37,304 nucleotides of DNA from an uncultured Bacteroidales bacterium. GTDB taxonomy: Bacteria > Bacteroidota > Bacteroidia > Bacteroidales > WCHB1-69. The notes beneath the pieces are model-generated. The model saw only the letters and a program-made list of their open reading frames with translations. It was not told the origin of the DNA and made no database searches. Positions 15,997 to 34,558 of this stretch are shown here, one piece after another. The DNA lies in assembly GCA_946186495.1 (NCBI GenBank), contig CAMHNQ010000027.1, positions 1 through 37,304 of the forward strand, written 5' to 3'. Position 1 is the first letter of the stretch. Each line of letters begins with the position of its first letter. The position numbers were made by a program, and so were the translations under genes.

Positions 15997-16733
15997 CTAT
16001 TTCAGATTCGTGTCGAACCAATCGATGAAATTGCGATGCCAGAGGAGACTGTTCTGCGGTTTCAGCACCCAGTGGGTCTCGTCCGGGAAGTAGAGGTAAC
16101 GGCTCGGGATGTGGCGCATCTGCGCGGCGTTGTAGGCCGCCATACCCTCGGAAGCCACGATACGGAAGTCGAACTCGCTGTGGATCACGCAAATCGGGGT
16201 GTTCCATTTATCCACAAACAGGTGCGGGGAGTTGGCGTAGCTCTTCTTGACCTGCGGGTTGTTCCAATCCCAGTAAGGACCGCCGATGTCCCAGTTGTCG
16301 AACCACATCTCTTCCGTCTCTAAATATTGCTGTTCGAAGTTGAACATGCCGTTGTGCGCCAGGAAGGCCTTGAAACGACGACCGTCGTTGTAGCCCTTCA
16401 CGTCGTGGTTGTGACCGGCGAGCCAATAGGCGCTGTAGCCGCCGAAGCTGGCGCCGCATGCGCCAAGTCGCTCTTTGTCAATCTGTTTCACACTGTCGGC
16501 GAAGAAGTCCGCTGCACGCATATAGTCCTGCATGCAGAGTCCGCCGTAGTCGCCACTGATCTCCTCGGTCCACGCTTGGCCGAAGCCCACATCACCTCGG
16601 GGGTGAATCGGCCATCTTGGACCTGGATTTCGGGTTTTCCGATGACCTTGTCACCGGATTGCTCCTATTTCTTCGTGCAGTCGCAAACCAATGCCAGCAG
16701 CGCGATTGCGATAAAAAGTTTCTTTATATTCAA
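15997..16733 (-). pseudogene. S9 prolyl-oligopeptidase family peptidase, internally deleted
   Basis: The 3' part encodes about 197 residues of an S9 catalytic domain with nucleophile motif GACGASFGGYS, acid region HSEFDFRI and histidine DETHWV. On the same strand immediately upstream, 16733-16598 encodes a lipoprotein-like start (NIKKLFIAIALLALVCDC) followed by a TAG stop and then the segment GDKVIGKPEIQVQDGRFTPE, typical of a mature N terminus. The two parts are in different frames. The middle, roughly 450 residues of the propeller domain in full-length relatives, is missing. The gene therefore has a deletion, a frame change and a nonsense codon, yet keeps its promoter. Its start appears to be TTG at 16733. 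Confidence 0.85.
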
Positions 16734-16761
16734 TAAAATTTGATGTCAGAAAACGAAAGCG

Positions 16762-16793
16762 CAAAAGTAATATTTTTTTGGGCAATAGACAAA
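16762..16793 (-). promoter_or_regulatory. Promoter of the broken S9 peptidase gene
   Basis: On the minus strand TTTG (16793-16790) and TACTTTTG (16769-16762) are separated by 20 bases, a full match to the Bacteroidetes consensus. It lies about 30 bases before the remnant's start codon. Confidence 0.75.
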
Positions 16794-16825
16794 GGACAAC
16801 AGGCAACAGAGATTGAGAAAAAAAC

Positions 16826-16833
16826 TATTTTTG
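16826..16833 (+). promoter_or_regulatory. -7 box, possible distal promoter of the alcohol dehydrogenase operon
   Basis: TATTTTTG followed by CAGCGG matches the -7 consensus. It would give a leader of about 150 bases carrying the long hairpin at 16851-16887. No well-spaced -33 element is seen. Confidence 0.35.
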
Positions 16834-16850
16834 CAGCGGCTTAGGATTTG

Positions 16851-16887
16851 CGTCATTCCTGCCGCGAAAAGGTCGCCAGGAATGACG
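16851..16887. repeat. REP-like palindrome in the ADH leader
   Basis: CGTCATTCCTG (16851-16861) pairs with CAGGAATGACG (16877-16887), 11 perfect bp. An inner GCGA/TCGC stem (16864-16867, 16873-16876) extends it, with loop AAAGG. It looks like a short extragenic palindrome; no T run follows. Confidence 0.65.
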
Positions 16888-16984
16888 ACACTCCTGCAAA
16901 CAAACGAAACAACAGTTGTTATATAGAAGTCCAAAACAAGTAAGACAATAGAGAACACAATGATTTCAATTAAACAATAAAAAT

Positions 16985-18157
16985 ATGTTAGGAAATTTCT
17001 CGTACCACAATCCCACCAAATTGTACTTTGGTGATGAATCTTTGAACTATCTCAAGGACGAATTGAAGAACTACGGACCTGTTGTGCTGCTGAACTACGG
17101 TAGCGGCAGCGTGAAGAAGAACGGCATCTATGACGAGGTGGTGGCCATCCTGAAGGCGGCCGGCAAAACCATCGTGGAGAACCCCGGCGTGATGAGCAAC
17201 CCCACGTTGGAGAAGCTGCACGAAGGCGTCAAAATCGCCCGCGAACACAATGTCGATATGATCCTCTCCCTCGGCGGCGGCAGCGTCTGCGACTACTCCA
17301 AGGGCGTGGCTGCCTCGGTGTTCTATGACGGCGACTATTGGGACAGATTCTGGCTGCAGGGCAAACATCCTGACGCGGGCCAACGTATCCTGCCCATCGG
17401 TTGCATCCTCACGATGGCGGGCACCGGCTCGGAAATGAACGGTGGCTCGGTGATTACCGACGCTGAGCATAAATTCAAGGTGGGACACGTGTTCGACGCT
17501 CGTCTGATGCCGAAATTTTCCATCCTCAACCCGAAATACACGATGACAGTACCCGACGAACAGATGAAGGCGGGCATCTACGACATCATGAACCACATCT
17601 TCGAGCAGTATTTCTCCGATTTCGACGACAACACCAGCGACTACCTTTCCGAAGGGCTGATGCGCAGTCTCATTGTCTCCTCACGCGCGGCGGTGAAGAA
17701 CCCACAGGACTACGAAGCCCGCTCCAACATCATGTGGACGGCCACCTGGGCACTCAACACGCTGCTCAAATGCGGCAAAACGCAAGATTGGATGGTGCAC
17801 ATGATCGGTCACAGCGTGGGCGCATGGACGCACGCTCCGCACGGTTTCTGCCTGGCCGCCGTCTCGATGGCCTACTACAAGCGTGCCATGAAGCCCGGTC
17901 TGGCCAAGTTCGTACGTTTCGCCAAGAATGTCTGGAACGTCTGCCCTGATGGAAAGACCGATGAACAGATTGCCGAAGCCGGTCTCGAAGCCTTGAAGAA
18001 CTGGATGCTGGAAATCGGTCTGCCGCTGACCATCAGCGAGCTCGGCGCCACTGAAGAGATGATCCCCGGCATCACCCAAGGCACCATCTGCTATCCGGCC
18101 GGCTATATGGATTTGAAACCCGCAGATGTCACGGAGATACTGAAGGAGAGTATGTAA
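16985..18157 (+). CDS. Iron-containing alcohol dehydrogenase, butanol dehydrogenase-like
   Basis: This group III, metal-dependent NAD(P)H alcohol dehydrogenase has 390 residues. It has a nucleotide motif SLGGGSVCDYSKG (near residue 97), GTGSEMNGGSVIT, and metal ligands in IYDIMNHIFEQYF (Asp and His) and MIGHSVGAWTHAPHG (two His). Similarity is to BdhA/YqhD-type enzymes that reduce aldehydes with NADPH. The ATG at 16985 gives the family start FSYHNPTKLYFG. It heads an operon with a cupin (one-base overlap) and a nitroreductase, and lies next to the fermentation block, suggesting reduced-cofactor disposal or aldehyde detoxification. The substrate cannot be fixed from sequence. Confidence 0.92.
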   Translation: MLGNFSYHNPTKLYFGDESLNYLKDELKNYGPVVLLNYGSGSVKKNGIYDEVVAILKAAGKTIVENPGVMSNPTLEKLHEGVKIAREHNVDMILSLGGGSVCDYSKGVAASVFYDGDYWDRFWLQGKHPDAGQRILPIGCILTMAGTGSEMNGGSVITDAEHKFKVGHVFDARLMPKFSILNPKYTMTVPDEQMKAGIYDIMNHIFEQYFSDFDDNTSDYLSEGLMRSLIVSSRAAVKNPQDYEARSNIMWTATWALNTLLKCGKTQDWMVHMIGHSVGAWTHAPHGFCLAAVSMAYYKRAMKPGLAKFVRFAKNVWNVCPDGKTDEQIAEAGLEALKNWMLEIGLPLTISELGATEEMIPGITQGTICYPAGYMDLKPADVTEILKESM

Positions 18158-18612
18158 TGGACGCAACGGAATACATCCATAAACTGGGTCTCGTTCCACA
18201 TCCGGAAGGAGGTTATTACCGCCAGCTGTTCGGCAATGACGAGACGGGTGAAAAGCCCGTCTCCACCATCTATTACATGCTGACCGCCAACGACATGTCG
18301 GCGTTCCACCGTCTGCACAACATGGTGGAAATCTGGTATTTCCATGCGGGCGAACCGCTCAATATCTATGTAATTGATCCCGACGGAACCTTGGCCGTCC
18401 ATCGGCTTTCCGAGCAAGACGAAATGCAGGTGGTCATCCAGCCGGAGCAGTGGTTTGCCGCCGAGATTCCCTCCAAACGCGGCTTCTGCCTCGTCGGATG
18501 TGCCGTCGGTCCGGCCTTCCGATTCGAGAACTTCGAGTTGGCCAAGAAGGAGGGGTTGCTGAAGCTGTACCCGCAGCATAAGGCGTTGATAGAACGAATG
18601 TGTAAAGAATAA
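18157..18612 (+). CDS. DUF985 (YML079-like) cupin protein
   Basis: This 151-residue single-domain cupin has the DUF985 signature: LGLVPHPEGGYYRQLF at the N terminus, TIYYMLTANDMSAFHRL, EIWYFHAGEPLNIY, and the C-terminal VGPAFRFENFEL. Function is not established for the family; a small sugar or nucleotide-sugar ligand is likely. The ATG overlaps the TAA of the alcohol dehydrogenase by one base. A second, internally deleted copy lies at 21194 and a third 3' scrap at 27610, so the gene has been duplicated locally. Confidence 0.88.
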   Translation: MDATEYIHKLGLVPHPEGGYYRQLFGNDETGEKPVSTIYYMLTANDMSAFHRLHNMVEIWYFHAGEPLNIYVIDPDGTLAVHRLSEQDEMQVVIQPEQWFAAEIPSKRGFCLVGCAVGPAFRFENFELAKKEGLLKLYPQHKALIERMCKE

Positions 18613-18630
18613 CCATAAAATAGACCCATT

Positions 18631-19320
18631 ATGACCTTACAAGAAGCCATCGTTGCCCGCCACAGCGTGCGGCAATACATCGAAAAGCCCATCGAGGCGG
18701 AGAAGGTCCAGCAATTGCAAACCCTCATCGACGAGTGCAACCGCGAGGGCGGGCTGCATATACAGTTAGTGACAGAGGAACCCAACGCCTTTGCCGGCGG
18801 GATGGCCAAGTATGGCAAGTTTCGCGGCGTGCGCAACTACATCGCCATGATCTGCAAGAAGGGCGACGATGTGAAACTCGGCTACTACGGTGAGAAGGTG
18901 ATCCTGTTGGCGCAAACGCTCGGACTGAACACCTGCTGGGTGGGACTCTCCTTCCGCAAACAACCCGACCAGTACAAGGTGGACGACGGCGAGACGCTCG
19001 TCTGCGTGGTGTCGCTCGGCTACGGGGCCACGCAAGGCGTGCAGCACCCGCAGAAGCGGACCAGAGCCGACGTGACGGAAGACCAGCGCACCGCCGACCA
19101 CGGGAAGCCTTTCCCCGCGTGGTTCGGGCGTGGCGTGGAGGCTGCATTATTGGCGCCCACGGCCGTCAACCAGCAGAAGTTCGTGTTTGTCCTGCACGAC
19201 GACAACCGTGTGGAGGCCAAGGCGAAGTTCTCCCTCATCGGCTATGCCAAACTCGACCTCGGCATCGCCAAATGCCACTTCGAGGTGGGCGCGGGGAAGG
19301 AGAATTTCGAATGGGTGTAA
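18631..19320 (+). CDS. Nitroreductase family protein (TM1586-like)
   Basis: This FMN-dependent oxidoreductase has 229 residues. The N-terminal block ARHSVRQYIEKPIEAEKV contains the usual RxSxR FMN phosphate motif; KLGYYGEKVILLAQTLGLNTCWVG is the second domain signature; the C-terminal half repeats the fold (VEAALLAPTAVNQQKFVF), as in TM1586-type tandem nitroreductases. The natural substrate is unknown. It follows the cupin by 18 bases and closes the operon. After it begins a decayed region with no clear terminator. Confidence 0.85.
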   Translation: MTLQEAIVARHSVRQYIEKPIEAEKVQQLQTLIDECNREGGLHIQLVTEEPNAFAGGMAKYGKFRGVRNYIAMICKKGDDVKLGYYGEKVILLAQTLGLNTCWVGLSFRKQPDQYKVDDGETLVCVVSLGYGATQGVQHPQKRTRADVTEDQRTADHGKPFPAWFGRGVEAALLAPTAVNQQKFVFVLHDDNRVEAKAKFSLIGYAKLDLGIAKCHFEVGAGKENFEWV

Positions 19321-19339
19321 ATCAAGTGTCTCCATAACA

Positions 19340-19609
19340 TTGCACGACGATGTGACTTCGGTGGCGAATCAGATTGAATGGCATTCAAGAGATGTATGTA
19401 GGTACAGCGAACCTGGTCATTTCAGAGGCAATTACATACTTGAGCTAAAGATCATTCATCATCCGGGCAGCGACCATGCCGCCAATGCCAGTGCCGCATT
19501 GGCAAACTTGCGCGATTGGGGTTACATCGAAATTGACACCACCGATTGGCAGAAAGTCATCATCGTTCGCAAAGGAACACGCCCAGAAGACTACACTATA
19601 AAAAAATAG
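19340..19609 (+). CDS. Hypothetical protein or gene tail, about 85-89 aa
   Basis: The open frame ends KGTRPEDYTIKK and has a good coding look (NQIEWHSRDVCRYSEPGHFR, ANLRDWGYIEIDTTDW). Possible starts are TTG at 19340 or GTG at 19352; no ATG exists in frame, so it may be the 3' part of a truncated gene. The stop codon runs into a -7-like box (19610-19617). No family was recognised. Confidence 0.4.
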   Translation: MHDDVTSVANQIEWHSRDVCRYSEPGHFRGNYILELKIIHHPGSDHAANASAALANLRDWGYIEIDTTDWQKVIIVRKGTRPEDYTIKK

Positions 19610-19621
19610 TATTTTTGCAAC

Positions 19622-19700
19622 GAGGTTGAAACTTCGGTTTCAGCTGTCGAGTCTGCGGGCTCGACGATTCAGGTGGCAGGACGAAAATCCTGCTATTCTG
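19622..19700 (+). ncRNA. Candidate structured small RNA, three hairpins
   Basis: Immediately after a -7-type box (TATTTTTG, 19610-19617) come three closely packed 8-bp hairpins. HP1: 19625-19632 with 19637-19644, closed by C(TTCG)G, the ultra-stable tetraloop. HP2: 19646-19653 with 19658-19665, loop TGCG. HP3: 19674-19681 with 19688-19695, loop CGAAAA. G-T pairs occur in all three. No open frame is favoured across it. The end has only a weak T tract (CTTT). It could be an independent small RNA, a leader remnant or a mobile-element RNA. Confidence 0.45.
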
Positions 19701-19702
19701 CT

Positions 19703-19998
19703 TTAAAGAGAAGCCGGATGTCGCACCCCATCCACTTGCAAATCCGGGCATTTGCCATAGTATGCGGTGTCTTTCAACGTACCATATATTTGGTCGTATG
19801 CGGGGTTCTTATAAGGCACGTCCAATTTTGGGGCAAGATAACCGTTTTACCTTGGTGAGCAAAGAATTTGGCACAATCGAAAACACGCCTAAAATCGCCA
19901 GTACTTCTATCAATACTATTGTAAACCAACACTTTTCCTCCATTTGGATAGTGTGCCAAAATTTTCATGGTCATATTTGTTGGATGTCGTTCTGCCAT
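19703..19998 (-). pseudogene. Frameshifted CdiA-C/EndoU-like small nuclease-family remnant (tentative)
   Basis: The segment MTMKILAHYPNGGKVLVYNS, then VFDCAKFFAHQGKTVILPQ, is followed in another frame by TAYYGKCPDLQVDGV. This order (AK.FA..GK, then T.YYGKCPDL..DG) resembles small Bacteroidetes proteins related to contact-dependent-inhibition tRNase or phage nuclease domains. A one-base frame change at about 19774 splits it, and the 3' end stops soon after the DGV motif. The start is either ATG at 19998 or a Met eight codons later. Family naming is from memory and is tentative; that it is frameshifted is clear if the family is right. Confidence 0.45.
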
Positions 19999-20176
19999 AC
20001 AATATTTCGTTGTCAAAAAATCAGGCGGCAAAGACAAGAAAAATCGCAATATACTAATTATAAGCGTGTTAATTAACAAATAATTGTAAAAAACTCATTT
20101 GTGATAATGTGCGATAGAACAATAGATATTACATATGCTCTTCGTCCTGCAAATATACCAGAAAACTGATTTTTTG

Positions 20177-20184
20177 TATTTTTG
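20177..20184 (+). promoter_or_regulatory. -7 box of the carbonic anhydrase gene
   Basis: TATTTTTG followed by C, 23 bases before the GTG start. No clear -33 element. Confidence 0.5.
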
Positions 20185-20207
20185 CGCCCATATTAAATTG
20201 ACTAATT

Positions 20208-20759
20208 GTGATCGACCAGATTATCGAATACAACAAAACTTTCGTGGCGCAGAAGGGCTACGAACAATACCTCACCGACAAGTACCCCGACAAGAAGTTG
20301 GCGGTACTGTCGTGTATGGACACGCGGCTGACGGAGCTGCTGCCCGCCGCGCTCGGGCTGAAGAACGGCGATGCGAAGATCATCAAGAACGCGGGCGGGC
20401 TGGTGATTTCCGCCTTCGACTCGGCGATGCGCAGCCTGATTGTGGCCATCTACGAGCTCGGGGTGGAGGAGATCATGGTGGTGGCGCACTCGCACTGCGG
20501 GGCCTGCCACATGAGCTACGACCACTTCCACCACGAGATGATCACCCGCGGCGTGACAGACGAGACGCTCGACACCATCCGCCAATGCGGCATCGACCTG
20601 AACCACTGGTTAGAGGGCTTCAAGGACACCCCGACCTCCGTCCGCAAAACCGTCGAGACCATCAAGACGCACCCGCTCGTACCAAAGGACATCGTGGTGC
20701 GAGGCTTCATCATCGATTCGGAGACGGGGAAGTTGGAGGAGATTGAGGGATTGTGCTGA
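20208..20759 (+). CDS. Beta-class carbonic anhydrase
   Basis: The zinc enzyme interconverts CO2 and bicarbonate. The 183-residue protein shows the zinc-site motifs LSCMDTRL (Cys, Asp, Arg) and AHSHCGACHM (His, Cys), with NAGG in between (KNAGGLVISAFDSAMRSL). It is the short, cytoplasmic form. The start is GTG at 20208; a related copy at 25313 uses ATG at the same position, supporting this choice. The CDS overlaps the next gene by seven bases. The same gene appears as an internally deleted copy at 25313-25456 and as a 5' scrap at 27572, so this is the surviving member of a locally duplicated family. Confidence 0.92.
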   Translation: MIDQIIEYNKTFVAQKGYEQYLTDKYPDKKLAVLSCMDTRLTELLPAALGLKNGDAKIIKNAGGLVISAFDSAMRSLIVAIYELGVEEIMVVAHSHCGACHMSYDHFHHEMITRGVTDETLDTIRQCGIDLNHWLEGFKDTPTSVRKTVETIKTHPLVPKDIVVRGFIIDSETGKLEEIEGLC

Positions 20760-21190
20760 TCGTCCGCCATATCCGCCATTGGTACGAGCCGAAGCTGCCA
20801 CACGCGGTCTTCATCAACGGTTTTTTCGCCGGGATGATGAGGGACCACGATCTGCGCATTGAGGCACCGCCCGGAAAATACAGCCTCCGGGTGCAGTTCG
20901 GCGGCCCCCTGCGGTTGGGCAAAAGCGGCAAGAGCATCGACCTGTCGCTGTCATCCACCACAGAGGTGGAGATACCGCAAAACGGGGAGGTACTCTGCAC
21001 GTTCCACGACCGCGAACGCCTCTGGAACGTCCTGTTCGACATCGACCTCGTCCTGTGGATCGTCTCCTGGTTCGTCACCATGCCCCCGCTCTACAAGATT
21101 CTTTCCAATGTCTTCTTCGCGATTTGGCTGGTGCGGTTAGTGGTGATACGGAAGCGGTATTATAAAATATGTTGTACGAATCCAAAATAA
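20753..21190 (+). CDS. Hypothetical protein with C-terminal membrane segments
   Basis: This 145-residue protein has a soluble N-terminal part with beta-rich character (AVFINGFFAGMMRDHDLRIE, PPGKYSLRVQF), resembling small PEGA-like beta domains, then two hydrophobic stretches (LVLWIVSWFVTMPPLY and VFFAIWLVRLVVI). A role at the inner membrane is likely; the function is unknown. The GTG at 20753 overlaps the carbonic anhydrase stop by seven bases, so the two are translationally coupled. It is followed almost directly by a cupin remnant, suggesting an ancestral carbonic anhydrase-membrane protein-cupin cassette. Confidence 0.65.
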   Translation: MLIVRHIRHWYEPKLPHAVFINGFFAGMMRDHDLRIEAPPGKYSLRVQFGGPLRLGKSGKSIDLSLSSTTEVEIPQNGEVLCTFHDRERLWNVLFDIDLVLWIVSWFVTMPPLYKILSNVFFAIWLVRLVVIRKRYYKICCTNPK

Positions 21191-21193
21191 ATT

Positions 21194-21341
21194 ATGAACG
21201 CTACAGAATACATACAGAAACTTGGCCTTGAGCCACATCCCGAGGGAGGCTATTACCGACAGCCGTCCGGCCTTCCGTTTCGAGAATTTCGAGTTAGCCA
21301 AGAGGGACGAGTTGTCGGGGCTGTTGGCGTGTTTTCGTGAT
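21194..21341 (+). pseudogene. DUF985 cupin remnant with internal deletion
   Basis: The first 24 codons encode MNATEYIQKLGLEPHPEGGY and YRQ, matching the N terminus of the intact cupin at 18157. They are joined directly to the cupin's C-terminal region (GPAFRFENFELAK in the intact gene; here PAFRFENFELAKRDEL in a shifted frame). About 85 codons between are missing, with a CCG shared at the junction. It begins only four bases after the preceding stop codon, so it sat in one operon with carbonic anhydrase. Confidence 0.85.
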
Positions 21342-21349
21342 TTTCCGAT

Positions 21350-21421
21350 GGAGATTCCGCTCGCTCACTGCGTTCGCGGCGGAATGGTGCGCCAGTGACG
21401 ATAGGAACTGACGGAATCTCC
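21350..21421. repeat. Nested palindromic element
   Basis: GGAGATTCCG (21350-21359) is the perfect inverse of CGGAATCTCC (21412-21421). Inside, TCACTG (21365-21370) is the inverse of CAGTGA (21393-21398), around a GC-rich core with GTTCGCGG. It looks like a REP/BIME-type mobile palindrome lying beside the cupin remnant. Confidence 0.6.
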
Positions 21422-21538
21422 CCCGTTCAAAGACAAATTTCCTCAAACAGTCTGAGACATACTTGCGAAATTTGAATAATATTTTTTTCCGACAATGCGC
21501 AAGGATATCGCAACAGTCTGTGGCAGCTCTAAAAAGTC

Positions 21539-22723
21539 TCATTCCACCGCCCGTATCCTCACCGTGTCGCGCACATCGCGGTCGAGGTAGTAAATCTCCA
21601 CCGCCTGGCCATTTCCGAGGGATTCCTTGGAAAAGAGATAGGGCTCCAGCTGCAAATTAAAGGTGTCTGTGACAAAACGCTGGCCGGAGGGAGTCATCAG
21701 CATCGCCAACAAACAGGAATCTTCTTTTTCGCAGATGAAGCGGTATATTCGCCGGCCATCGAACTCCACTAAGGCCACCTCTTTGAAACAGGCGGCGGTG
21801 TCGGGCACCACGATGGTGTCGCAGCGGCCCTCCCAATTGGCTGCCAGCATTTTGCATTGGTCATCCAACACGGTGAACGGAAGCCCGGCCTCTTGCAGAT
21901 ATTGATTGTTATACATTTTGTGACCTAACAACAACCTCTCATATTTTATTTTTGGAGCGGGCGGGAAAGACAACGTTTTCCACAGATTGTCAGTGAAATA
22001 TCCATATTTCTCGGACTCCACGCTGCAGGCGCAACGGGCCATCACCGGACGGTCGGGAAAGACGGTATGATAGAGTATCAGCCTGTCCTCCAGGCATATC
22101 GGGGCAAGCGGGTCCCGATCCCCGTTGAGGCGCATTCCGATCACCATGGCGGGGTCGTGCAACGGCGGACGCCAGCCGTCATACGGGCACGCCCGAGTGT
22201 GATAGCGGAAATGCATCCCTAAAATCCGTTCCGTCATCGGGTTGCGCTTGTCGTACTCGCCACTGCGCACCCCGTTCGCCGCCGAACGGAAGGTCAGACC
22301 GCTCCACAGCACAAAAACGACACACATCGCCAAACCTGCCGCATACCAAAGCCGCACCTTCTTGTTGACGGGATGCACCAGATTGCACCATATCAACACA
22401 AACAGGAACCATTGCGGTATAGGCAGGATGATGTTGTCGGGAAAGGTGAAACAGAACCAATAGAGAAACACGCCCGTGCTGATGCCGCACATCAGGGCAT
22501 TGGGCCGCCACAACGGCGTGCGCTCCAACCAAGTGAACAGGATGATGTTCAGGAAGCTCAGTACCTGCACGACCGCGGCCCACACCACGAACACGCAGAA
22601 GCCGCCGTTGAAGCGGTGGTTCAACGCCACAGAGACGATGACAAAAAACAGGTTTAGGAACGGCATCGCCTTGTATCTCAACTGCTTGCCGTGATTCGAA
22701 AGAAAATAAGCGATATGACCCAT
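21539..22723 (-). CDS. Hypothetical polytopic membrane protein
   Basis: The frame is open from 22795, but the ATG at 22723 (MGHIAYFLSNHGKQLRYKAM) gives a natural start, about 394 residues. Five hydrophobic segments fill the N-terminal half (MPFLNLFFVIVSVAL, FVVWAAVVQVLSFL, ISTGVFLYWFCFTF, WFLFVLIWCNLV, LAMCVVFVLWSGL). A soluble C-terminal domain of about 220 residues with CACS and several tryptophans follows. This topology resembles Bacteroidales DUF-type membrane proteins of unknown role; no catalytic motif is seen. The gene faces the cupin remnant tail-on and is divergent from higB. Confidence 0.65.
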   Translation of the reverse strand: MGHIAYFLSNHGKQLRYKAMPFLNLFFVIVSVALNHRFNGGFCVFVVWAAVVQVLSFLNIILFTWLERTPLWRPNALMCGISTGVFLYWFCFTFPDNIILPIPQWFLFVLIWCNLVHPVNKKVRLWYAAGLAMCVVFVLWSGLTFRSAANGVRSGEYDKRNPMTERILGMHFRYHTRACPYDGWRPPLHDPAMVIGMRLNGDRDPLAPICLEDRLILYHTVFPDRPVMARCACSVESEKYGYFTDNLWKTLSFPPAPKIKYERLLLGHKMYNNQYLQEAGLPFTVLDDQCKMLAANWEGRCDTIVVPDTAACFKEVALVEFDGRRIYRFICEKEDSCLLAMLMTPSGQRFVTDTFNLQLEPYLFSKESLGNGQAVEIYYLDRDVRDTVRIRAVE

Positions 22724-22831
22724 ATTGATTGAAAGATGGTGAGGAAGATACAACGGAGGAGCGTGCTGAATATTATCTTGGAAAATCTTTTGCACTTAGC
22801 TCACAACCGTATTGAAATCATATTCGCTTTT

Positions 22832-22888
22832 TTTGCGAACTTTGAAAAAAAATTATATCTTTGCGGCCTGAAATCATACCAAGGTATG
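22832..22888 (+). promoter_or_regulatory. higBA promoter with operator palindrome
   Basis: TTTG (22832-22835), 20 bases, then TATCTTTG (22856-22863): a full match to the Bacteroidetes promoter. CATACC-AA-GGTATG (22875-22888) is a perfect palindrome that includes the higB ATG, a likely binding site for the antitoxin HigA. Confidence 0.7.
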
Positions 22889-23194
22889 GAAGTGAAATTT
22901 GAGAAAGAATACTTGCGAGAACCGTTCTACTATGGGGAAACTAAAGACAAACAACATCGCTATCAGCCTCATATTGTTAGAAGATATGTTCGTGTGGTCA
23001 ATATTCTCGATTCGGTGGAAAAAGTGATAGATCTGTATAGATATAGGGCTCTTCATTACGAGAAATTGGTGGGTGATAAAGCAGGTTTGGAATCTGTACG
23101 AGTCAATGACCAATATCGGATTGAATTTAAGGCGTCAGCTAACGATGGTATTACCATTTGTAATATCATAGAATTGTCTAATCATTATAAATAA
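22886..23194 (+). CDS. higB: HigB-like toxin of a type II toxin-antitoxin pair
   Basis: This 102-residue RelE-superfamily toxin is expected to cleave mRNA on the ribosome. The C-terminal block GLESVRVNDQYRIEFKASAN and NIIELSNHYK are HigB signatures; the core LYRYRALHYEKLVGDKAGL is the basic helix region. The longer open frame from 22736 covers the promoter, so the ATG at 22886 is chosen. The toxin precedes the antitoxin, the inverted gene order typical of HigBA, with a 14-base gap. A palindrome overlapping the start suggests autorepression. Confidence 0.85.
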   Translation: MEVKFEKEYLREPFYYGETKDKQHRYQPHIVRRYVRVVNILDSVEKVIDLYRYRALHYEKLVGDKAGLESVRVNDQYRIEFKASANDGITICNIIELSNHYK

Positions 23195-23208
23195 CAGGAA
23201 AATTAGAT

Positions 23209-23520
23209 ATGGGAAATTTAGGTTACGGAGCTTATCCAACACACCCGGGCGAAGTTCTCAAGGACGAAATTGAAGAACGCGGTATCAGTCAGCGCCAGTT
23301 GGCCGAAAGTATGGGGTTGACCTATTCAGTAGTCAACGAAATCCTTAATGCCAAACGTCCGTTGACCGCCAAAACGGCACTGATGTTTGAGGCCGCTCTT
23401 GACGTGCCAGCCGACTCGCTCATGTATCTTCAGATGAAATATAATATGCAGACAGCGCGGAAGGATTCTTCCATACTGGATATGCTGAAAAACATCAGAA
23501 AAGTGGCTGCCGTGCTATAA
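23209..23520 (+). CDS. higA: HigA-like antitoxin, XRE/HTH family
   Basis: This 103-residue DNA-binding antitoxin starts GAYPTHPGEVLKDEIEERG, the classic HigA N terminus (HPGEVL). The HTH is ISQRQLAESMGLTYSVVNEI with the recognition helix at about residues 40-50, then NAKRPLTAKTALMFEAALD. It neutralises HigB and represses the operon. It appears intact. Confidence 0.9.
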   Translation: MGNLGYGAYPTHPGEVLKDEIEERGISQRQLAESMGLTYSVVNEILNAKRPLTAKTALMFEAALDVPADSLMYLQMKYNMQTARKDSSILDMLKNIRKVAAVL

Positions 23521-23577
23521 AAAAGAGCAGAATTATCCCTTTAGGTCTTGCAAAAACAGTGTGACAATCTGCGCTAA

Positions 23578-23622
23578 TCTGCGAGTTCTGCGGGACAATT
23601 ATATGCCCGCAGAACTCGCAGA
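23578..23622. repeat. Perfect 17-bp palindrome
   Basis: Bases 23578-23594 are the exact inverse of 23606-23622 (arm TCTGCGAGTTCTGCGGG), with an 11-base loop. The word CTGCG repeats within it and on both flanks (23569-23573, 23625). No T run follows, so it is more like a REP element than a terminator. Similar TCTGCGG words occur at 430-470. Confidence 0.8.
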
Positions 23623-25312: not shown

Positions 25313-25456
25313 ATGATCGACCAAATTATCGAATACAACAAAACCTTCGTGGCACAGAAGGGCTGTGAGACCCACCCGCTCGTACCAAAGGACATCATGG
25401 TGCGAGGCTTCATCATCGATTCGGAGACGGGGAAGCTGGAGGAGGTTAAAGGATAA
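25313..25456 (+). pseudogene. Carbonic anhydrase mini-gene, middle deleted in frame
   Basis: Forty-seven codons fuse the first 17 codons of the carbonic anhydrase (MIDQIIEYNKTFVAQKG) to its last 28 (THPLVPKDIMVRGFIIDSET and GKLEE). About 135 codons, including all zinc ligands, are missing, yet the frame is intact and the start is a better ATG. The nucleotide match to 20208-20759 is very high at both ends, so the copy or deletion is recent. Catalysis is impossible; a small peptide may still be made. Confidence 0.88.
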
Positions 25457-27070: not shown

Positions 27071-27106
27071 TTTTACTTGAACTGTAGAAATAATATTGTT
27101 AAAAAC

Positions 27107-27484
27107 ATGGAAATCACCCTTCTTTTGGAATACGCCGACCGTGCGCAGCTCCGGCAGTGGCTCACGGACAACCACCTGACAGCCAAGGAGTGCTGGGTGG
27201 CGACATACCGCGGCAAAGCACCGTTGCCCGGCCCCTGCCTGCCATACCTCGACGTGGTGGAGGAAGCCCTCTGCTTCGGCTGGATCGACAGCACCTGCAA
27301 ACGCCTGCCCGACGGCCGCTTGGCGCAACGCCTCTCGCCGCGCCGCAAGAACAGCCACTGGACGGACTTGAACAGGCAGCGCTGCGCCGACCTCGAACGC
27401 CGCGGCCTGATGACGGAGGCGGGGAAAATGTGTGTTCGCGAATTCAGCGAGTTTTTATCAAAGCCCTATTGCAACCCGCGATAG
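27107..27484 (+). pseudogene. Truncated YdeI/OmdA-family protein
   Basis: The N-terminal two-thirds of a YdeI-like (bacteriocin-protection) protein is clear: HLTAKECWVATYRGK, then YLDVVEEALCFGWIDSTCKR, RLSPRRKNSHWTDLN and RRGLMTEAGK. Relatives are about 190 residues; this stops at 125 just after EAGK, with an unrelated tail (EFSEFLSKPYCNPR). The ATG at 27107 gives the family start. The lost C-terminal third makes function doubtful. It follows the ATPase gene and precedes a mixed carbonic anhydrase/cupin scrap. Confidence 0.7.
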
Positions 27485-27571
27485 AGTTCATAATAAAAAT
27501 GCTGCGCACAAACAACATTTTTTTTGAAAACTGTTGCCTGTGCGCAACAAATTCTTGATCTTGCCGCCTAA

Positions 27572-27651
27572 ATTATCGCTTCCAACAAGCCGTTCGTGGC
27601 GCAGGAGGACTGCGCAGCGCCAGGCGTTAGTCGAAAGGATGTGCAAAAAGT
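27572..27651 (+). pseudogene. Chimeric scrap: carbonic anhydrase 5' end fused to cupin 3' end
   Basis: 27572-27613 aligns with the 5' end of the carbonic anhydrase gene (33 of 42 bases identical by eye; IIASNKPFVAQ against IIEYNKTFVAQ). It runs directly into sequence matching the end of the DUF985 cupin (QALVERMCKK against KALIERMCKE, about 27 of 38 bases). Gene order agrees with the carbonic anhydrase-membrane protein-cupin order at 20208-21341, so one large deletion in a third copy of that cassette explains it. Confidence 0.65.
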
Positions 27652-27682
27652 GCTCAGGCGACAATAGAACCGGATTTTTTTG

Positions 27683-27690
27683 TACTTTTG
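27683..27690 (+). promoter_or_regulatory. -7 box of the helicase gene
   Basis: TACTTTTG followed by C matches TAnnTTTG, 24 bases before the ATG at 27715. Confidence 0.45.
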
Positions 27691-27714
27691 CCCTTTGGTT
27701 TTTAGCAGAACAAC

Positions 27715-30462
27715 ATGGGGGACAAAGCGATACTGCATTTCAACGGGACCTGGAGAAGCTACCAGCAGCGGATCTTGGACAACCTCGACTATCACGTGCG
27801 CGACAAGAAGCTCCATGTGGTGGCCGCCCCTGGCGCGGGAAAGACCACCCTCGGCATCGAGGTCATCGCGCGGCTGCGGCGCCCTACCTTGATACTCTGT
27901 CCCACCAACACCATCAAAAACCAATGGCGGGACCGTATCCGCTCCTCCTTCCTCCAAAAGAAAGACTACGGCATCGTCTCCACCGTGATACGGAAGCCCG
28001 GCCTCCTGACAGTGACGACCTACCAGGCGCTGTTGGCCGCTTTCTGCGGACGTTCGGAAGAGGGGGAGGACTCGGAAGAAAATGCAGAACACGAAGAGAC
28101 AGAAACCGCTACCGACTCCATCGCGTCATCCGCCCGATTCAAGAAGGAAAAAGCCGACGAGGTCATCGCCATCCTGAAAGCCGCTGAGGTTTCCATGCTT
28201 TGCTTCGACGAGGCGCACCACCTGCGGAAAGAATGGTGGAAAGCCCTGACCTACCTCAACGAGCACCTGAAGCCGAAGCAGACCTTGGCCCTGACGGCCA
28301 CGCCTCCCTACGACGCGGACTACGCCGAATGGAAACGCTACCAGGACCTCTGCGGCGAAATCGACGAGGTCATCTCCATCCCGGAACTGGTGAAAAACGG
28401 CGACCTGTGCCCCCATCAGGACTTTGTCTGGTTCTCGCCCCTCAAGCAAAACGAGCGGGAATTGCTGAAAAAGCACAACCAGAATGTCGGGATTTTCGTC
28501 GAGATGCTCCAAAACGACACGGAGCTGCTGGACAGCCTGTCGGGGATGGCGTTCTTCGAGGCGCGGGAATCCGACATCGAGATGCTTCTCGAATCGCCGA
28601 CATTTTATGTGGCCATAGCCTCCTTGCTGAACGCCAAAGGCTATCGGATTTCAGAAAGCTTTTTGGAATTGTTCGACGCGAGCCAGGCGGACCTGCCGAA
28701 ATTCAATCTCCAGCAGGCCTCGGCGTTCCTCAACGGCTTTTTCGGAAACGAGGCCGAATGGCTCAAGCCTTTGGATCCGAAAAAAGAGCACTATTTCGAG
28801 ATTGCCAAGAGAATGGGGCTTGTGGTCAACAAGAAGGTCGTGCTCAACGAAAGCCTCAAAATCCGGAGGTTGATTGCCGGCAGTGTCGGAAAGCTGGACT
28901 CCATCGTCGAGATTGTCCGGCTGGAACATGCCCAGCTGAAAGAACGGTTGCGCATGGTGATTCTGACAGACCATATCAAGATGACCGACACCGCCTGCCA
29001 AAGTATGGGGGTGGTGCCGATTTGGAGAAAGCTCAAGGGGGCTGTCGAAAAGGACATCGCCATTGGCGTGTTGTGCGGTTCGCTGATCCTGTTGCCGGAG
29101 CATATCATCGGGAAGCTGTATAAAGCATTGGCAGACAACAATATCCCGAACGATTCCTTCAAAATCAGCCGCTTCGAGAACGACACCGGCTATATTCGGA
29201 TCATCCCCAAGATGGGCATCCGCAACCATATTGTCGGCATGATAACGGAGATGTTTTGCGCCGGCGACCTGCAAATTCTGGTCGGCACGCAGGCGCTGCT
29301 CGGCGAGGGCTGGGACGCGCCCGCCATCAACTCGCTGATCCTCTCCAGCACGGTGAGTTCCTACATGCTCTCCAACCAGATGCGGGGACGCGCCATCCGA
29401 ATCGACAAAGACCATCCGGACAAGGTCTCGAACATCTGGCACCTTGCCTCCATCGATTTCCCCGAAAAGGAAGATTCTTCTTTGTCAGGGACCTTTTCGG
29501 ACAATGATATGGAGAATATCTGTCTCTACACTTACGACCTCATACAACTCTCCGCCAGATTCCAGGGGTTCGAGGCGCCGGCCTACTATAGCAAGCACGA
29601 GATAACCTCGGGGATAGAGCGCATTTTGGAAGCGCCCAGTGCCAATCCGATGATTGAAACCCCGCTGAAGAACAAGGTGAAAGGTCTCAAAGACCTCACC
29701 AAGAAACTCGCCCCCAACCGGGAGCAGACACGGCAGTGGTGGAAAGACGCATTGTATCTCGGTTATGGACACACCAGGCAGAGGAGCCTCTCCACAGGTG
29801 TCAAAACCCCGAAAATGACCACCAGGTTTTTGATGTACAAAGGGTACAAGTTCATTGTCTCCTCGTTCTTGGCATCCGTTCTCGTGACATACTTGATTCT
29901 TTTAAGGGTATTTCCGCCCATTCATCTCTCTGTTCTCACGGCGGCAGCTGTAGGCATATTCTTTGGAGTGGTTGGTATGAAATACCTCAAGACGGGGACG
30001 GTGGAGGGTGTTTTGAAGCAAGTGGCCATCACCGTATTGGAGACATTGTCATCGCAGGGGTTGATAAAAACGTCCATCAAGAATGTCGGGCTGCACGTCT
30101 CCGAGGATGACGGCGCGCTCTTTGTCTGTTGTTCCAACCTGCCCGCCCAGGAGAACAACCTGTTCATACAGTCCCTGCAGGAGTTCCTCGACCCGGTGGA
30201 CAACCCCCGCTACCTCCTCGTCAAACGGGACAAAATCTTCGGGAAAATCAGGCAAACCGACTATTTCTCCGTCCCTGCAATCCTGACGGCCAAAAAGAGC
30301 GTTGTCGAGACATTCAGGCAATTGTGGGAGAACCATATCGGGGAGTGCGAGATTGTCTATACCCGCAACCTCGAAGGCCGGAAGCTGCTGCTGAAGGCGC
30401 GCAAGGACGCCTCGTCGGCAATCTCTCGCCGAAAATCCAAACGGCTCTCGAAATGGCAGTGA
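27715..30462 (+). CDS. SF2 (DEAH) helicase with predicted membrane segments
   Basis: This 915-residue protein has the helicase motifs in order: Q-like ILDNL, Walker A APGAGKTTLG (K43), CPTNTIKNQW, Walker B CFDEAHH (D165-H168), motif III LTATPP, then in the second lobe GTQALLGEGWDAPAIN and motif VI NQMRGRAIR. A linker with many acidic residues (near 100-125) separates motifs Ib and II. Between about 713 and 761 are two hydrophobic segments (FIVSSFLASVLVTYLILL; SVLTAAAVGIFFGVVGM), unusual for a helicase, then a soluble C-terminal domain of about 150 residues with no match I know. Membrane-linked nucleic acid handling, perhaps defence or DNA uptake, is inferred. Confidence 0.8.
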   Translation: MGDKAILHFNGTWRSYQQRILDNLDYHVRDKKLHVVAAPGAGKTTLGIEVIARLRRPTLILCPTNTIKNQWRDRIRSSFLQKKDYGIVSTVIRKPGLLTVTTYQALLAAFCGRSEEGEDSEENAEHEETETATDSIASSARFKKEKADEVIAILKAAEVSMLCFDEAHHLRKEWWKALTYLNEHLKPKQTLALTATPPYDADYAEWKRYQDLCGEIDEVISIPELVKNGDLCPHQDFVWFSPLKQNERELLKKHNQNVGIFVEMLQNDTELLDSLSGMAFFEARESDIEMLLESPTFYVAIASLLNAKGYRISESFLELFDASQADLPKFNLQQASAFLNGFFGNEAEWLKPLDPKKEHYFEIAKRMGLVVNKKVVLNESLKIRRLIAGSVGKLDSIVEIVRLEHAQLKERLRMVILTDHIKMTDTACQSMGVVPIWRKLKGAVEKDIAIGVLCGSLILLPEHIIGKLYKALADNNIPNDSFKISRFENDTGYIRIIPKMGIRNHIVGMITEMFCAGDLQILVGTQALLGEGWDAPAINSLILSSTVSSYMLSNQMRGRAIRIDKDHPDKVSNIWHLASIDFPEKEDSSLSGTFSDNDMENICLYTYDLIQLSARFQGFEAPAYYSKHEITSGIERILEAPSANPMIETPLKNKVKGLKDLTKKLAPNREQTRQWWKDALYLGYGHTRQRSLSTGVKTPKMTTRFLMYKGYKFIVSSFLASVLVTYLILLRVFPPIHLSVLTAAAVGIFFGVVGMKYLKTGTVEGVLKQVAITVLETLSSQGLIKTSIKNVGLHVSEDDGALFVCCSNLPAQENNLFIQSLQEFLDPVDNPRYLLVKRDKIFGKIRQTDYFSVPAILTAKKSVVETFRQLWENHIGECEIVYTRNLEGRKLLLKARKDASSAISRRKSKRLSKWQ

Positions 30463-30667
30463 ACGGTCGGACGGCGACAGGCTGACAGGGCTTACGCACC
30501 AACTCTTCCGAACGACTGAGCTGCGATGCATGCAGAAAGCCCGGGCGAAAGGGAAACTCAGGATGTTAGCGGGGAATGGCTTGGGCAAGCCGGCTCACCC
30601 AAACAAAAAACCAAATGAGTAAACTCCGCAAAAACAAAAACGGGATATTGCATTATTGTAACTTTTG

Positions 30668-30675
30668 TATCTTTG
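30668..30675 (+). promoter_or_regulatory. -7 box of glmS
   Basis: TATCTTTG followed by CAGCC, 36 bases before the glmS ATG; TTG at 30648-30650 is 17 bases upstream. Confidence 0.5.
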
Positions 30676-30711
30676 CAGCCGAAAAAAAAACATCTTCGAA
30701 AAAATATCAAT

Positions 30712-32556
30712 ATGTGCGGAATTGTAGCATACGTGGGCTATCAAGAGGCCTACCCTATTCTTATCGAGGGCCTGAAACGGCTTGAATATCGCGGTTATGA
30801 CAGTGCAGGCGTGGCTTTGCTGAACGCAGCCGACCAGCTGAACGTGTACAAGGCCAAGGGCAAGGTCTCCGATTTGGAAGCCAAGACAGCGGGCCAAGAC
30901 CTCAGCGGCCACATCGGCATCGCCCACACCCGTTGGGCCACCCATGGGGAGCCGAACGAGACCAACGCCCACCCGCATCTTTCCAAGTCAGGAAGCATCG
31001 CGTTGATACACAACGGCATCATCGAGAACTACCTGAGCCTCCGCAAAGAGTTGGAAAAGCGCGGATTTGTCTTCCGCTCCTCCACAGACACGGAAGTGCT
31101 CACCAACCTCATCGAGGACGTGCAGCAGAGCGAGCATGTCGATCTCTTCGAGGCCGTCCGTATCGCCCTGAACCACGTGGTCGGCGCATACGCCATCGCC
31201 ATCGTGGAGAAGGGCCACCCCGATGAACTGATTGCCGCCCGAAAGGGCAGTCCTATGGTCATCGGCATCGGCGACGGCGAATACTTCGTCGCATCCGACG
31301 CCACCCCCATCGTGGGCCGCACCCAGAAAGTGGTTTACCTCGAGGACGAGCAGGTGGTGCGCATCAAGTTGGGCGAAGAGCTGCATATCAAGACTATCCA
31401 GGACGTGGAGGCCATCCCATACGTGCAAGAGCTGAAGATGAACCTCGACAGTATCGAGAAGGCAGGCTTTGACCATTTCATGATGAAGGAGATTTTCGAG
31501 CAGCCGGCCATCGTCCGCGACACCATGCGCGGGCGGCTGCACCCCGAGACCAATTCGGTGAGCTTGGGCGGCATCCTCCAATATGAGAAACAGCTCGTAT
31601 ATGCCGACAACATCATCTTCGTGGCTTGCGGAACCTCCTGGCATGCCAGCCTGGTGGGCAGCTACATGATCGAGAACATAGCCAAGATCCCCGTCAAGGT
31701 GGAATATGCCTCCGAGTTCCGATACCGCAACCCCGTGGTCACCCCGCACGACGTGGTAATCGCCGTTTCCCAATCGGGCGAGACCGCCGACACCCTGGCC
31801 GCCATCAACCTGGCCAAGGAGAAAGGCGCCGTCGTGCTGGGCATCTGCAATGTCATCGGCTCCTCGATCTCCCGGGCGACCGACGCCGGCATATACACCC
31901 ACGCTGGCCCCGAAATCGGCGTGGCCTCCACCAAGGCTTTCACCTCACAGGTCACCGTGATGGCCATGCTCGCCTTGCGATTGGCCGAACTCAACGGCGC
32001 GATAAAAGACGAGGAACGCGCCGCTTTCATCAAGGAGTTGGACACCATCCCCGAGAAAATCCAATGGACCCTCGACCATAGCGGTCATGTGAAAGAAATC
32101 GCCGCCAGATACAAGGACGTACGCAACATGCTGTATTTAGGCCGTTTGCAGAACTACCCCGTAGCTTTGGAAGGGGCCTTGAAACTGAAGGAAATATCAT
32201 ACATCCACGCCGAAGGGTATCCGGCCGCCGAAATGAAACACGGCCCCATTGCATTGATCGACAAAGACATGCCGGTAGTTTTCATTGCCACGAACCACAG
32301 CACCTACGAGAAAGTGCTCAGCAACATCCAAGAGGTGAAGGCCCGAGACGGCAAGATTATCGCCATCGTCAGCGAGAAAGACGTGCTGGCCCGCAAGATG
32401 GCCGACTACGTGATCGAGATCCCCGAAACGGAATGCCTCTATTCCCCGCTGTTGGCCACCGTCCCCTTGCAAATCCTCGCCTACCACATCGCCGTGATGC
32501 GCGGCTGCAACGTGGACCAACCCAGGAACCTGGCCAAATCGGTGACGGTCGAATAA
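30712..32556 (+). CDS. glmS: Glutamine-fructose-6-phosphate aminotransferase (isomerizing)
   Basis: GlmS makes glucosamine-6-phosphate from fructose-6-phosphate and glutamine, the first step toward UDP-GlcNAc for peptidoglycan and LPS. The frame is open from 30673, but the catalytic Cys must be residue 2 after Met removal, so the ATG at 30712 (MCGIVAYVGYQEAYPILIEG) is the true start, giving 614 residues. The glutaminase domain (HTRWATHGEPNETNAHPH) and both SIS domains (ACGTSWHASLVG; LGRLQNYPVALEGALKLKE) are present, and the C-terminal PRNLAKSVTVE is the standard end. No glmS ribozyme is recognised upstream. Confidence 0.97.
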   Translation: MCGIVAYVGYQEAYPILIEGLKRLEYRGYDSAGVALLNAADQLNVYKAKGKVSDLEAKTAGQDLSGHIGIAHTRWATHGEPNETNAHPHLSKSGSIALIHNGIIENYLSLRKELEKRGFVFRSSTDTEVLTNLIEDVQQSEHVDLFEAVRIALNHVVGAYAIAIVEKGHPDELIAARKGSPMVIGIGDGEYFVASDATPIVGRTQKVVYLEDEQVVRIKLGEELHIKTIQDVEAIPYVQELKMNLDSIEKAGFDHFMMKEIFEQPAIVRDTMRGRLHPETNSVSLGGILQYEKQLVYADNIIFVACGTSWHASLVGSYMIENIAKIPVKVEYASEFRYRNPVVTPHDVVIAVSQSGETADTLAAINLAKEKGAVVLGICNVIGSSISRATDAGIYTHAGPEIGVASTKAFTSQVTVMAMLALRLAELNGAIKDEERAAFIKELDTIPEKIQWTLDHSGHVKEIAARYKDVRNMLYLGRLQNYPVALEGALKLKEISYIHAEGYPAAEMKHGPIALIDKDMPVVFIATNHSTYEKVLSNIQEVKARDGKIIAIVSEKDVLARKMADYVIEIPETECLYSPLLATVPLQILAYHIAVMRGCNVDQPRNLAKSVTVE

Positions 32557-32650
32557 CCGGTCTATAGACACGTACACCTTGCCCTTGCCACCTCACAGCG
32601 CGGCGATGCCAATCAGCATCCTCGCCTCATAGACATCGTCCTCCTCCCTC

Positions 32651-32932
32651 TCACTCGGGACAGTTGAAGAGATCTCCATACTCCTCCAGCGCGTGCTTCG
32701 GGTCGTATTGATTCTTCCTCCTATACTGATCCATCATTCCCAGCAGTGCTTCAAACTGCGCTCTCCTCTCCTCCTTCATCTCCCCGGAATTATACATTTT
32801 CCTGTTATACTTCAGCCAGTTACAGTATAACCCTCTTTCCTCCGCGTCATGCTTCGACGGATTGCGCTGTTTCTGTTTTATGAACTCCACAATTTCGTCA
32901 TACTTCGCTTTCCATAGCTCATCCTGCTTCAT
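32651..32932 (-). CDS. Helicase-associated-domain protein, 93 aa
   Basis: The small protein MKQDELWKAKYDEIVEFIKQ, then NPSKHDAEERGLYCNWLKYN, then KMYNSGEMKEERRAQFEALL, fits one helicase-associated (HA) repeat: W...Y..I..F...., then L..W....R..Y..G.L...R...L. HA repeats normally occur in tandem at the C terminus of helicases and bind nucleic acid. Here a single repeat stands alone, so it is either a stand-alone DNA-binding protein or a leftover from a larger gene. It has a normal ATG and stop. It lies in the decayed right-hand region. Confidence 0.6.
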   Translation of the reverse strand: MKQDELWKAKYDEIVEFIKQKQRNPSKHDAEERGLYCNWLKYNRKMYNSGEMKEERRAQFEALLGMMDQYRRKNQYDPKHALEEYGDLFNCPE

Positions 32933-32959
32933 ATTAACAAGTATTAAATGGGTGTTTGA

Positions 32960-33229
32960 TTATTGGTATCCGGTAAAACTGGACAGCTGGCGCATTCCGG
33001 TGCCTCTCTCCAGACAACGGACGATTATTTCGTTACGCTTTTCCTTGTCCATTTCCTGCACCTTGACAGAGTCCGTAATGCCATAACTATCCAACAGGTA
33101 TTGACGTATTTCGCGGTCACCCACACTAATCCTTACGCCCTCATCAAGGTCAAGACATTGCACATCGTCATCAAGCGGCACCTCAGAGAGGCGGCAGACG
33201 GTTGCCCTGGTCATCATACTGTTGTTCAA
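32960..33229 (-). pseudogene. C-terminal fragment of a RayT/Y1-type REP-associated transposase (tentative)
   Basis: The C-terminal part of RayT-like Y1 transposases has a DNA-binding tail with the pattern D..IR..L...YGI....E.Q..DKEKRNEII..L...G.G.RQLS..TG. This 89-residue frame has EIRQYLLDSYGITDSVKVQE then DKEKRNEIIVRCLERGTGMR then QLSSFTGYQ, a good match, but it stops at TGYQ where relatives continue. The catalytic HUH domain is absent. The palindromic repeats elsewhere in the window would suit such an enzyme as substrate; the link is inference. Confidence 0.5.
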
Positions 33230-33548
33230 GCATCTGCCCCATCTACTGTCTCCCTGACCACAAAATTCCTCATTCTTCCATGCTCAAGCAGGAAGGCCCT
33301 CAGAGCAACAACAGCCCACAACTGTCTGAAAACCAAAATCTTCTGAACCCCAAAAGCCATACTTGGATTTCCCCTATTCTTATCTCGACTTTTCCGCTGC
33401 AAATTTACATAAATTTCTTAATACAATTGAAATGAAATCACTTTCCTTTTTTATTTTTTCCTCTCCCCCACCCTATCTCCACCAACCTCGGTTAATCCCG
33501 GGCGGATTGACACGCAGGTTACAGGTTTTCAGGCTCAGGAACTTAGTG

Positions 33549-33604
33549 AAACCTGAATCCTGAAACCCTCAACCCTCAACCTTAAACCTTAAACCTTAAA
33601 CCTT
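33549..33604. repeat. Heptamer tandem repeat, 8 x 7 bases
   Basis: Eight units in exact phase: AAACCTG, AATCCTG, AAACCCT, CAACCCT, CAACCTT, then AAACCTT three times. The length is 56 bases, as at 4375-4430. Confidence 0.85.
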
Positions 33605-33826
33605 AAATCAATAACGGGTAATAGTGTCTGTCTGATGGTAAAAGCAGGTACTTAAATTGATCTGTCAATACGTCAAAGAACGCCCGAAACCATTTCGTGA
33701 TTGATTTCTACGGCAAAAATACCACCCCGGGGACCCTGAAACCAAGGAAGAAACTTCGCAACAACTTTCTTTCACCTTTCACCCTTGTAGATCAATAACT
33801 TATAACCCATAAAAAGAACGCTCTCT

Positions 33827-33875
33827 CAACCCTCAACCATAAACCATAAACCATAAACCTTAAACCTTGAACCCT
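33827..33875. repeat. Heptamer tandem repeat, 7 units
   Basis: Units CAACCCT, CAACCAT, AAACCAT, AAACCAT, AAACCTT, AAACCTT, GAACCCT in exact phase. Sequence is close to the array 220 bases upstream. Confidence 0.85.
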
Positions 33876-33954
33876 AAACTACACGAAGTGGCCAATATCA
33901 TCCACTGTCTTGGCTCTATTCCCTCAAACGCCATTTTTATTCCCTCACCCATAC

Positions 33955-33991
33955 AAAAAAAAGGGCCGACCAGCACCCTGCCAGTCAGCCC
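33955..33991 (-). terminator. Rho-independent terminator of the AbiE-like operon
   Basis: On the minus strand GGGCTGAC (33991-33984) pairs with GTCGGCCC (33970-33963) with one G-T pair, followed by eight T's (33962-33955). It terminates minus-strand transcription from the AbiE-like pair. Confidence 0.7.
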
Positions 33992-33994
33992 CAC

Positions 33995-34015
33995 TGTAAG
34001 CTGTAAGCCGTAAGC
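33995..34015. repeat. Short heptamer repeat, 3 units
   Basis: Units TGTAAGC, TGTAAGC, CGTAAGC. The same GTAAGC core recurs at 35749-35776. Confidence 0.6.
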
Positions 34016-34056
34016 TACTCACCACCTTTTCACCTTAATCACCGCCACCAGCAGTC

Positions 34057-34558
34057 TCAGAGTCCGAACAGCTGCTTTATCAACTCCGTAAACTCTGCCA
34101 TACCCATGGTTGGAATCCCTTGGCCGCGCATCATGTTCTTCCCGTCAACCGGACTCTTTTCCACTTCGCTGACAAACGCCCGCAAACGTTCCTTAATGCT
34201 GTCATTCACCTCAAACCGCTCGCTCCCGTCAAACACGTATGCCAGCCGGTAGATATCTTTCTTATGCTTGTCAATGTCTTTCTGGTCAACATCACCACCC
34301 TGTTCCTTCCGTCGCAGGTTTTCCAAGAAAGCCACAGCCTTCAGCACAATCAGCGCCTCCGGCCTTGATAAACTCCCAGAAACGTTTCATGTAGAACTTC
34401 GACTCCGGCTGACAGATGACAATCATGTCCACATCCTTAGTGGCCCGGGCAGGCAGTCCTCTGTCTTCCAGCGTCAGTACCGTTGCCAGGCCGCCAATCA
34501 CCACATAGTGCGAGCGGAAGCCACCCATATATTCCCTGAATTTATCTAAGCCTTGCAT
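34057..34558 (-). pseudogene. AbiEii-like nucleotidyltransferase toxin, internally deleted
   Basis: The 5' part (MQGLDKFREYMGGFRSHYVV, IGGLATVLTLEDRGLPARAT, KDVDMIVI) carries the nucleotidyltransferase core GG(L)AT...R.T.DVD. It is joined at FIKAGG to the 3' part, read in a different frame, ALIVLKAVAFLENLRRKEQG then DIDKHKKDIYRLAYVF, typical of the same family's C-terminal half. Relatives have roughly 70-90 more residues between. The frame change at about 34345-34365 and the missing middle inactivate it. It overlaps the stop of the upstream regulator by 13 bases. Confidence 0.8.

Follow-up and report, generated by a model that had tools for sequence, protein, structure and literature searches.

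Why should several dead genes in one short stretch of bacterial DNA each retain their start and their end, directly joined, with the middle gone? The question is raised by a contig of an uncultured Bacteroidales bacterium of the lineage WCHB1-69 (GenBank assembly GCA_946186495.1, contig CAMHNQ010000027.1), the whole stretch of which, 37,304 nucleotides (nt), is called the window here. An earlier note, made from the letters of the window alone, described four such pseudogenes, the remnants of an S9 peptidase gene, a cupin gene, a beta-carbonic anhydrase (CA) gene and an AbiEii-like toxin gene; it held that ordinary decay does not give this pattern and proposed either deletion between short repeats or a mechanism that copies gene ends. 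Comparison with relatives leads us to a different reading, to which we assign a probability of roughly 0.8: the remnants are ordinary pseudogenes that arose through illegitimate internal deletion of dispensable genes, together with one old CA deletion allele that was spread by recombination.

In the following, G000 is the genome of the window, other G-numbers are comparison genomes, L-numbers are examined loci and C denotes a contig; a gene is called joined-end if one internal block is absent and its 5′ and 3′ parts are directly fused. DNA searches for shared remnants covered 40 genomes of the genus. Relatives upheld the loss of an internal block in all four genes of the earlier note and also in a fifth remnant that it had overlooked, an open reading frame (ORF) of 177 amino acids (aa) for which no Pfam family was found at a threshold of 0.01 (Table 1). 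The share of the gene that is gone in the window cases ranges from 34 to 73%, and the reading frame is broken by the S9, cupin and 177-aa ORF losses as well as at the AbiEii-like junction. The S9 remnant keeps residues 1–57 and 504–703 of a 703-aa homologue, and the missing middle is retained in all seven relatives checked. Intact relatives within the same genome exist for three of the four genes first described, namely a 714-aa S9 copy (G000:C1, 86% over the 3′ part), a Cupin_5 paralogue of the cupin remnant (18157–18612) and the complete CA gene, so that damage to them was probably tolerated. Since a middle-only and a 5′-only remnant also lie in the window, the four genes originally listed are a selection.

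Table 1. Genes and remnants of the window that bear on the joined-end pattern (bp, base pairs).
Feature	Position	Strand	Remarks
S9 peptidase remnant	15997..16733	-	Peptidase_S9 match; 1375 bp (~65%) gone
Fifth joined-end remnant	19693..20033	-	177-aa ORF, uninterrupted in G014; 194 bp gone
Cupin remnant	21194..21341	+	281 bp gone; 4-bp CGGC junction near 21267-21271
Short CA form J1	25313..25456	+	47-aa open frame; 402-bp in-frame deletion
AbiEii-like remnant	34057..34558	-	~260 bp of middle gone, plus frameshift; only in G000 among the 40 genus genomes (DNA search)
Intact beta-carbonic anhydrase, 183 aa	20208..20759	+	Pro_CA 5.5e-18; PDB 6y04 8.9e-33
Gene X, 145 aa	20753..21190	+	ORF; joined-end forms in relatives
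Intact 332-aa gene	34546..35544	-	AbiEi-like position, ahead of AbiEii-like remnant and overlapping it
Middle-only remnant	19331-19603		~residues 90-180 of a 285-aa ORF of G013 (mechanical)
5′-only remnant	27077-27484		190-aa YdeI/OmdA-like gene, 3′ end gone

The junctions themselves were compared with 200,000 random breakpoint pairs placed within the same genes, and a direct repeat longer than expected by chance was found in three of the four that could be tested. The 177-aa ORF junction lies at a 9-bp repeat (CACCCCATT in G014, of which the window retains 8 of 9 positions; P 0.00017) and the S9 junction, at approximately 16575–16590, at a 7-bp repeat (GCCCACA, with the breakpoints seen in G020; P 0.0015) within an imperfect repeat of 16 bp, while the cupin junction shares 4 bp (P 0.018). 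At the AbiEii-like junction the shared sequence could be as long as 8 bp (CCGGAGGC), no close intact relative having been found for comparison. The proposal of deletion between short repeats is thus borne out for the S9 gene and the fifth remnant and weakly for the cupin gene, and it lacks support for the CA gene, whose junction is taken up below. Genes that are dispensable because they are duplicated, acquired or toxin-like would have been cut at short repeats, either through slipped mispairing or through end joining. Large deletions that reach needed neighbours would be purged by selection, which would favour those lying inside a gene, and gene ends would therefore tend to stay.

How often such losses fall inside genes was surveyed in 837,304 bases of G000 (the window and 40 stretches, each of 20 kb) against 800,000 bases from G021 and as many from G014. 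The mean identity of G000 to these references is approximately 79–80%, and G021 was compared with G014 as well. The events counted were indels of 60–4000 bp with collinear flanks, gain and loss being unpolarised, the genes were mechanical ORFs with a minimum of 80 aa, and the expectation was obtained by placing the same indel lengths randomly nearby; of the five cases in the window, the survey reaches only S9 and CA. Merging reduced 40 raw rows to 34 and removed three internal rows (the window CA, a true duplicate and an alternative version of an event retained under two-gene) together with one whole-gene, one two-gene and one one-end row, and the CA event was restored in a recount (n = 35). 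The 34 merged indels comprise 12 within one ORF, against 16.3 expected, 6 across one gene end, 6 joining two genes, 7 removing a whole gene and 3 in intergenic DNA. With CA restored, 13 of 35 indels of at least 60 bp lie within a gene; the relatives alone give 5 of 18 (8.8 expected), G000 losses with CA restored 8 of 17 (7.9 expected) and indels of at least 200 bp 8 of 24 (7.4 expected). In-gene deletions therefore show no clear overall excess in the sampled genome. The contention that ordinary decay does not produce such remnants gains no backing from the random placement of equal sizes, which yields 16.7 in-gene events for the 13 of 35 observed, and the comparison of rates with related genomes, run on these sampled stretches, likewise places in-gene deletions in no overall excess.

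The CA gene calls for an additional element, a putative old allele. The J1 joint was found in 10 copies in 8 of the 40 genus genomes (G000, G002 twice, G006, G010 twice, G014, G015, G050 and G052), with slightly different joint codons in one G010 copy and in G052, and a further, 5′-eroded short copy is present at G000:C28. For CA, one short architecture thus recurs across several species, an outcome which the earlier note had said would speak against its view, and the cupin remnant occurs with the same joint in one further species (G019, 97% identity). Two other in-frame CA joints, distinct from J1, were found in G051 and G043, and one-sided CA remnants in G012 and G006, to which G055 adds a match of just 34 nt. 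In a CA tree of 132 nt, weakly supported and with the G052 row out of register, the short copies do not form one clade separate from the intact ones, and in this weak, short tree the CA ends in G000 and G015 are nearer to the intact copy of their own genome than to other short copies. The short copy in the window carries changes of its intact neighbour at its 3′ end, while its joint codons agree with those of most other short copies. Because the ends in G000 and G015 track the intact copies of the same genome while the joint codons match most short copies, J1 is read as a putative single old in-frame deletion allele, which would have passed between species and recombined with intact alleles. 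Around the short CA body (25313 in the window, L034–L040 in relatives), approximately four different upstream regions were observed, the switch lying close to the start codon, and the same applies to gene X, the neighbour of CA; the genes at this locus seem to have been reshuffled near their boundaries.

Some of these short forms may still be under constraint. In eight of the ten J1 copies the frame stays open as far as the normal end, and for 8 of 9 aligned short copies (27 of 28 pairs) the mean nonsynonymous divergence (dN) is 0.058 and the mean synonymous divergence (dS) 0.485, compared with a dN of 0.035 and a dS of 0.818 for the same ends of 12 intact copies. The low dN relative to dS suggests constraint on the short CA, weaker than that on the intact ends, although recombination with intact copies could yield the same values. 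The short copy in the window is probably dead, since several of its coding sites do not agree with those of the intact neighbour and X does not directly follow it. A stronger version of the idea, which we regard as improbable, is that end-joined CA genes encode mini-proteins that are maintained, 36 to 58 residues long and made of the N-terminal arm and the C-terminal end; such proteins would have arisen in frame on at least three occasions and would modulate how CA is assembled or how the next gene is translated.

A related explanation places selection on the ends themselves: the promoter and start would be retained, the 3′ end would overlap and translationally couple the next gene, and short CA would act as a leader for X or its replacement. 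In the window, the end of the intact CA gene overlaps the start of X by 7 bp (20753–20759), the start of X lies directly after 7 of the 10 short J1 copies (one of these X genes being itself short), the end of the different short CA form of G043 is overlapped by the start of the next gene, and in G050 the next gene follows within approximately 15 bp; the open frames of most J1 copies point the same way. However, X does not directly follow the window copy or the G052 copy, and in G051 the gene after the short copy does not overlap it. All three separate CA joints (J1, G051 and G043) are in frame, but three of three corresponds to a chance of 1 in 27 that was noticed post hoc, and the frame-shifting losses elsewhere in the window are joined by two forms of X that also shift frame. 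For gene X, which has no Pfam family at 0.01, joined-end forms were observed in G010 and G014, in G046 and G009, and at another G046 locus and in G015; G045 carries a one-sided form. On this balance, we consider selection for the ends unlikely as the general cause.

The AbiEii-like remnant consists of a 69-aa start and a 100-aa end in two frames, where full relatives have 253–262 aa. Its neighbour, the intact 332-aa gene, was found in 28 of 393 genomes of the order (G000 included) and at two loci of the genome_contigs set. Among 31 loci examined, 18 have a matching full second ORF of 253–262 aa, and L212 has a 254-aa ORF without a match. Internal deletions of the second gene occur in the window, in L194 (a rumen Prevotella assembly, with a different joint of its own) and in G049, a shorter in-frame version of 228 aa in G327, and one-sided losses in L195, L216 and L217; in the same set, no second gene was found at L198 and L221, L211 (206 aa) is ambiguous, and L222 and L223 are weak partial matches to the neighbour. 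A plasmid search with the region returned no match. The second gene looks nucleotidyltransferase-like, judging from a motif. Models for AbiE in Pfam, NCBIfam and PADLOC (0.01) matched neither the window pieces nor the 332-aa neighbour, and a full-length homologue pair in L203 had no AbiE match in Pfam; the AbiE name is therefore owed only to the arrangement and this motif. In two overlapping genes, the second presumed to be of this kind, the locus resembles the AbiE toxin–antitoxin pairs described in PMC3985639, from which it differs in the lack of a profile match to these models. If the second gene is a toxin and a costly one, its repeated loss beside a retained partner would be expected.

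Comparable decay is known from other bacteria. Kuo and Ochman (2010; PMC2916853) describe a strong deletional bias in Salmonella, and the window cases are similar in that unselected genes are inactivated and eroded largely by deletions. The inferred purging of border-crossing deletions has a counterpart in the border-induced selection of Loewenthal et al. (2022; PMC9748784), in which a neutral stretch lies between conserved borders and, by inference, deletions that cross a border are removed and inner ones remain; that model was applied to human introns, not to bacterial genes.

Several observations weigh against ordinary deletion as a complete account. The main one, as regards calling the window cases wholly typical, is size: in the Salmonella study, pseudogenes with more than 20% lost are few, and the window losses are larger. 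The CA junction shares at most 1 bp (P 0.45 against random breakpoints). Of 12 G000 losses of at least 200 bp, 6 fall within genes, where random placement predicts 3.7 (P 0.10); S9 and CA, the very cases behind the question, are among these 6. In the families followed up, approximately 14 separate joined-end events stand against 9 one-sided and 1 middle-only, a tally that leaves aside copies truncated by contig ends (G002:C144 start and G002:C58), L211, L198, L221, L222, L223 and a decayed CA start at 27565–27614; the joined-end share in this ascertained sample perhaps exceeds what length alone predicts.

A dedicated process that joins or copies gene ends in the genus would account for such an excess and for the finding that CA, X and the AbiEii-like gene each turn up more than once in joined-end form, across several species. 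Yet joints differ within a family, one-sided losses accompany joined-end ones in the same three families, no common junction sequence was found among the four junctions compared, and the genome sample shows no overall excess of in-gene events. The copying mechanism envisaged in the earlier note accordingly finds no support, and we hold any such process to be the least probable of the explanations considered. Assembly error is scarcely more credible: the G000 assembly is in 130 contigs with an estimated contamination of 3%, and the S9, AbiEii-like and 177-aa ORF junctions were seen in G000 only, but the CA joint recurs in eight genomes and the cupin joint in two, and the usual words of assembly programs are longer than repeats of 7–9 bp. 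Illegitimate deletion within dispensable genes, with the CA allele beside it, is the reading that we retain.

Other remnants in the window do not follow the joined-end pattern. The piece at 19331–19603 keeps the middle alone, the opposite of what had been reported, and the 285-aa ORF of G013 that it matches has no Pfam family at 0.01. The decayed CA start mentioned above (50 bp, 76%) follows the cut YdeI/OmdA-like gene, and in G006 a CA start runs into what seems to be this YdeI/OmdA-like gene again. A tRNA-like piece at 38–90, which had been suggested as a further joined-end gene, was discarded as such: it contains the last 31 bp of tRNA-Gly(CCC) and conserved downstream flank, and the flank at 64–177 is 94% identical to intact tRNA-Gly loci of relatives. 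ARAGORN found no tRNA in the window, and Rfam at gathering scores found nothing there; the tRNA-Gly 3′ end at the start of the contig is likely an attachment-site remnant. A palindromic dispersed repeat with many matches in relatives lies at 21312–21480, and its window copy is without the inner part of the hairpin, with approximately 3 bp shared at the joint. The region 7564–16590, with genes for an iron-only hydrogenase and an alcohol dehydrogenase, matches G014, G021 and G006 at 95–96% identity along most of its extent, well above the average of the sampled G000 stretches against G014 and G021, and reflects either recent transfer or a mis-binned contig.

Retention of both gene ends needs no special process here, and a striking pattern repeated within one window can prove ordinary once the placement of deletions is set against a random control. 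If the CA mini-forms were maintained, they would provide a bacterial example of mini-proteins born through in-frame internal deletion.

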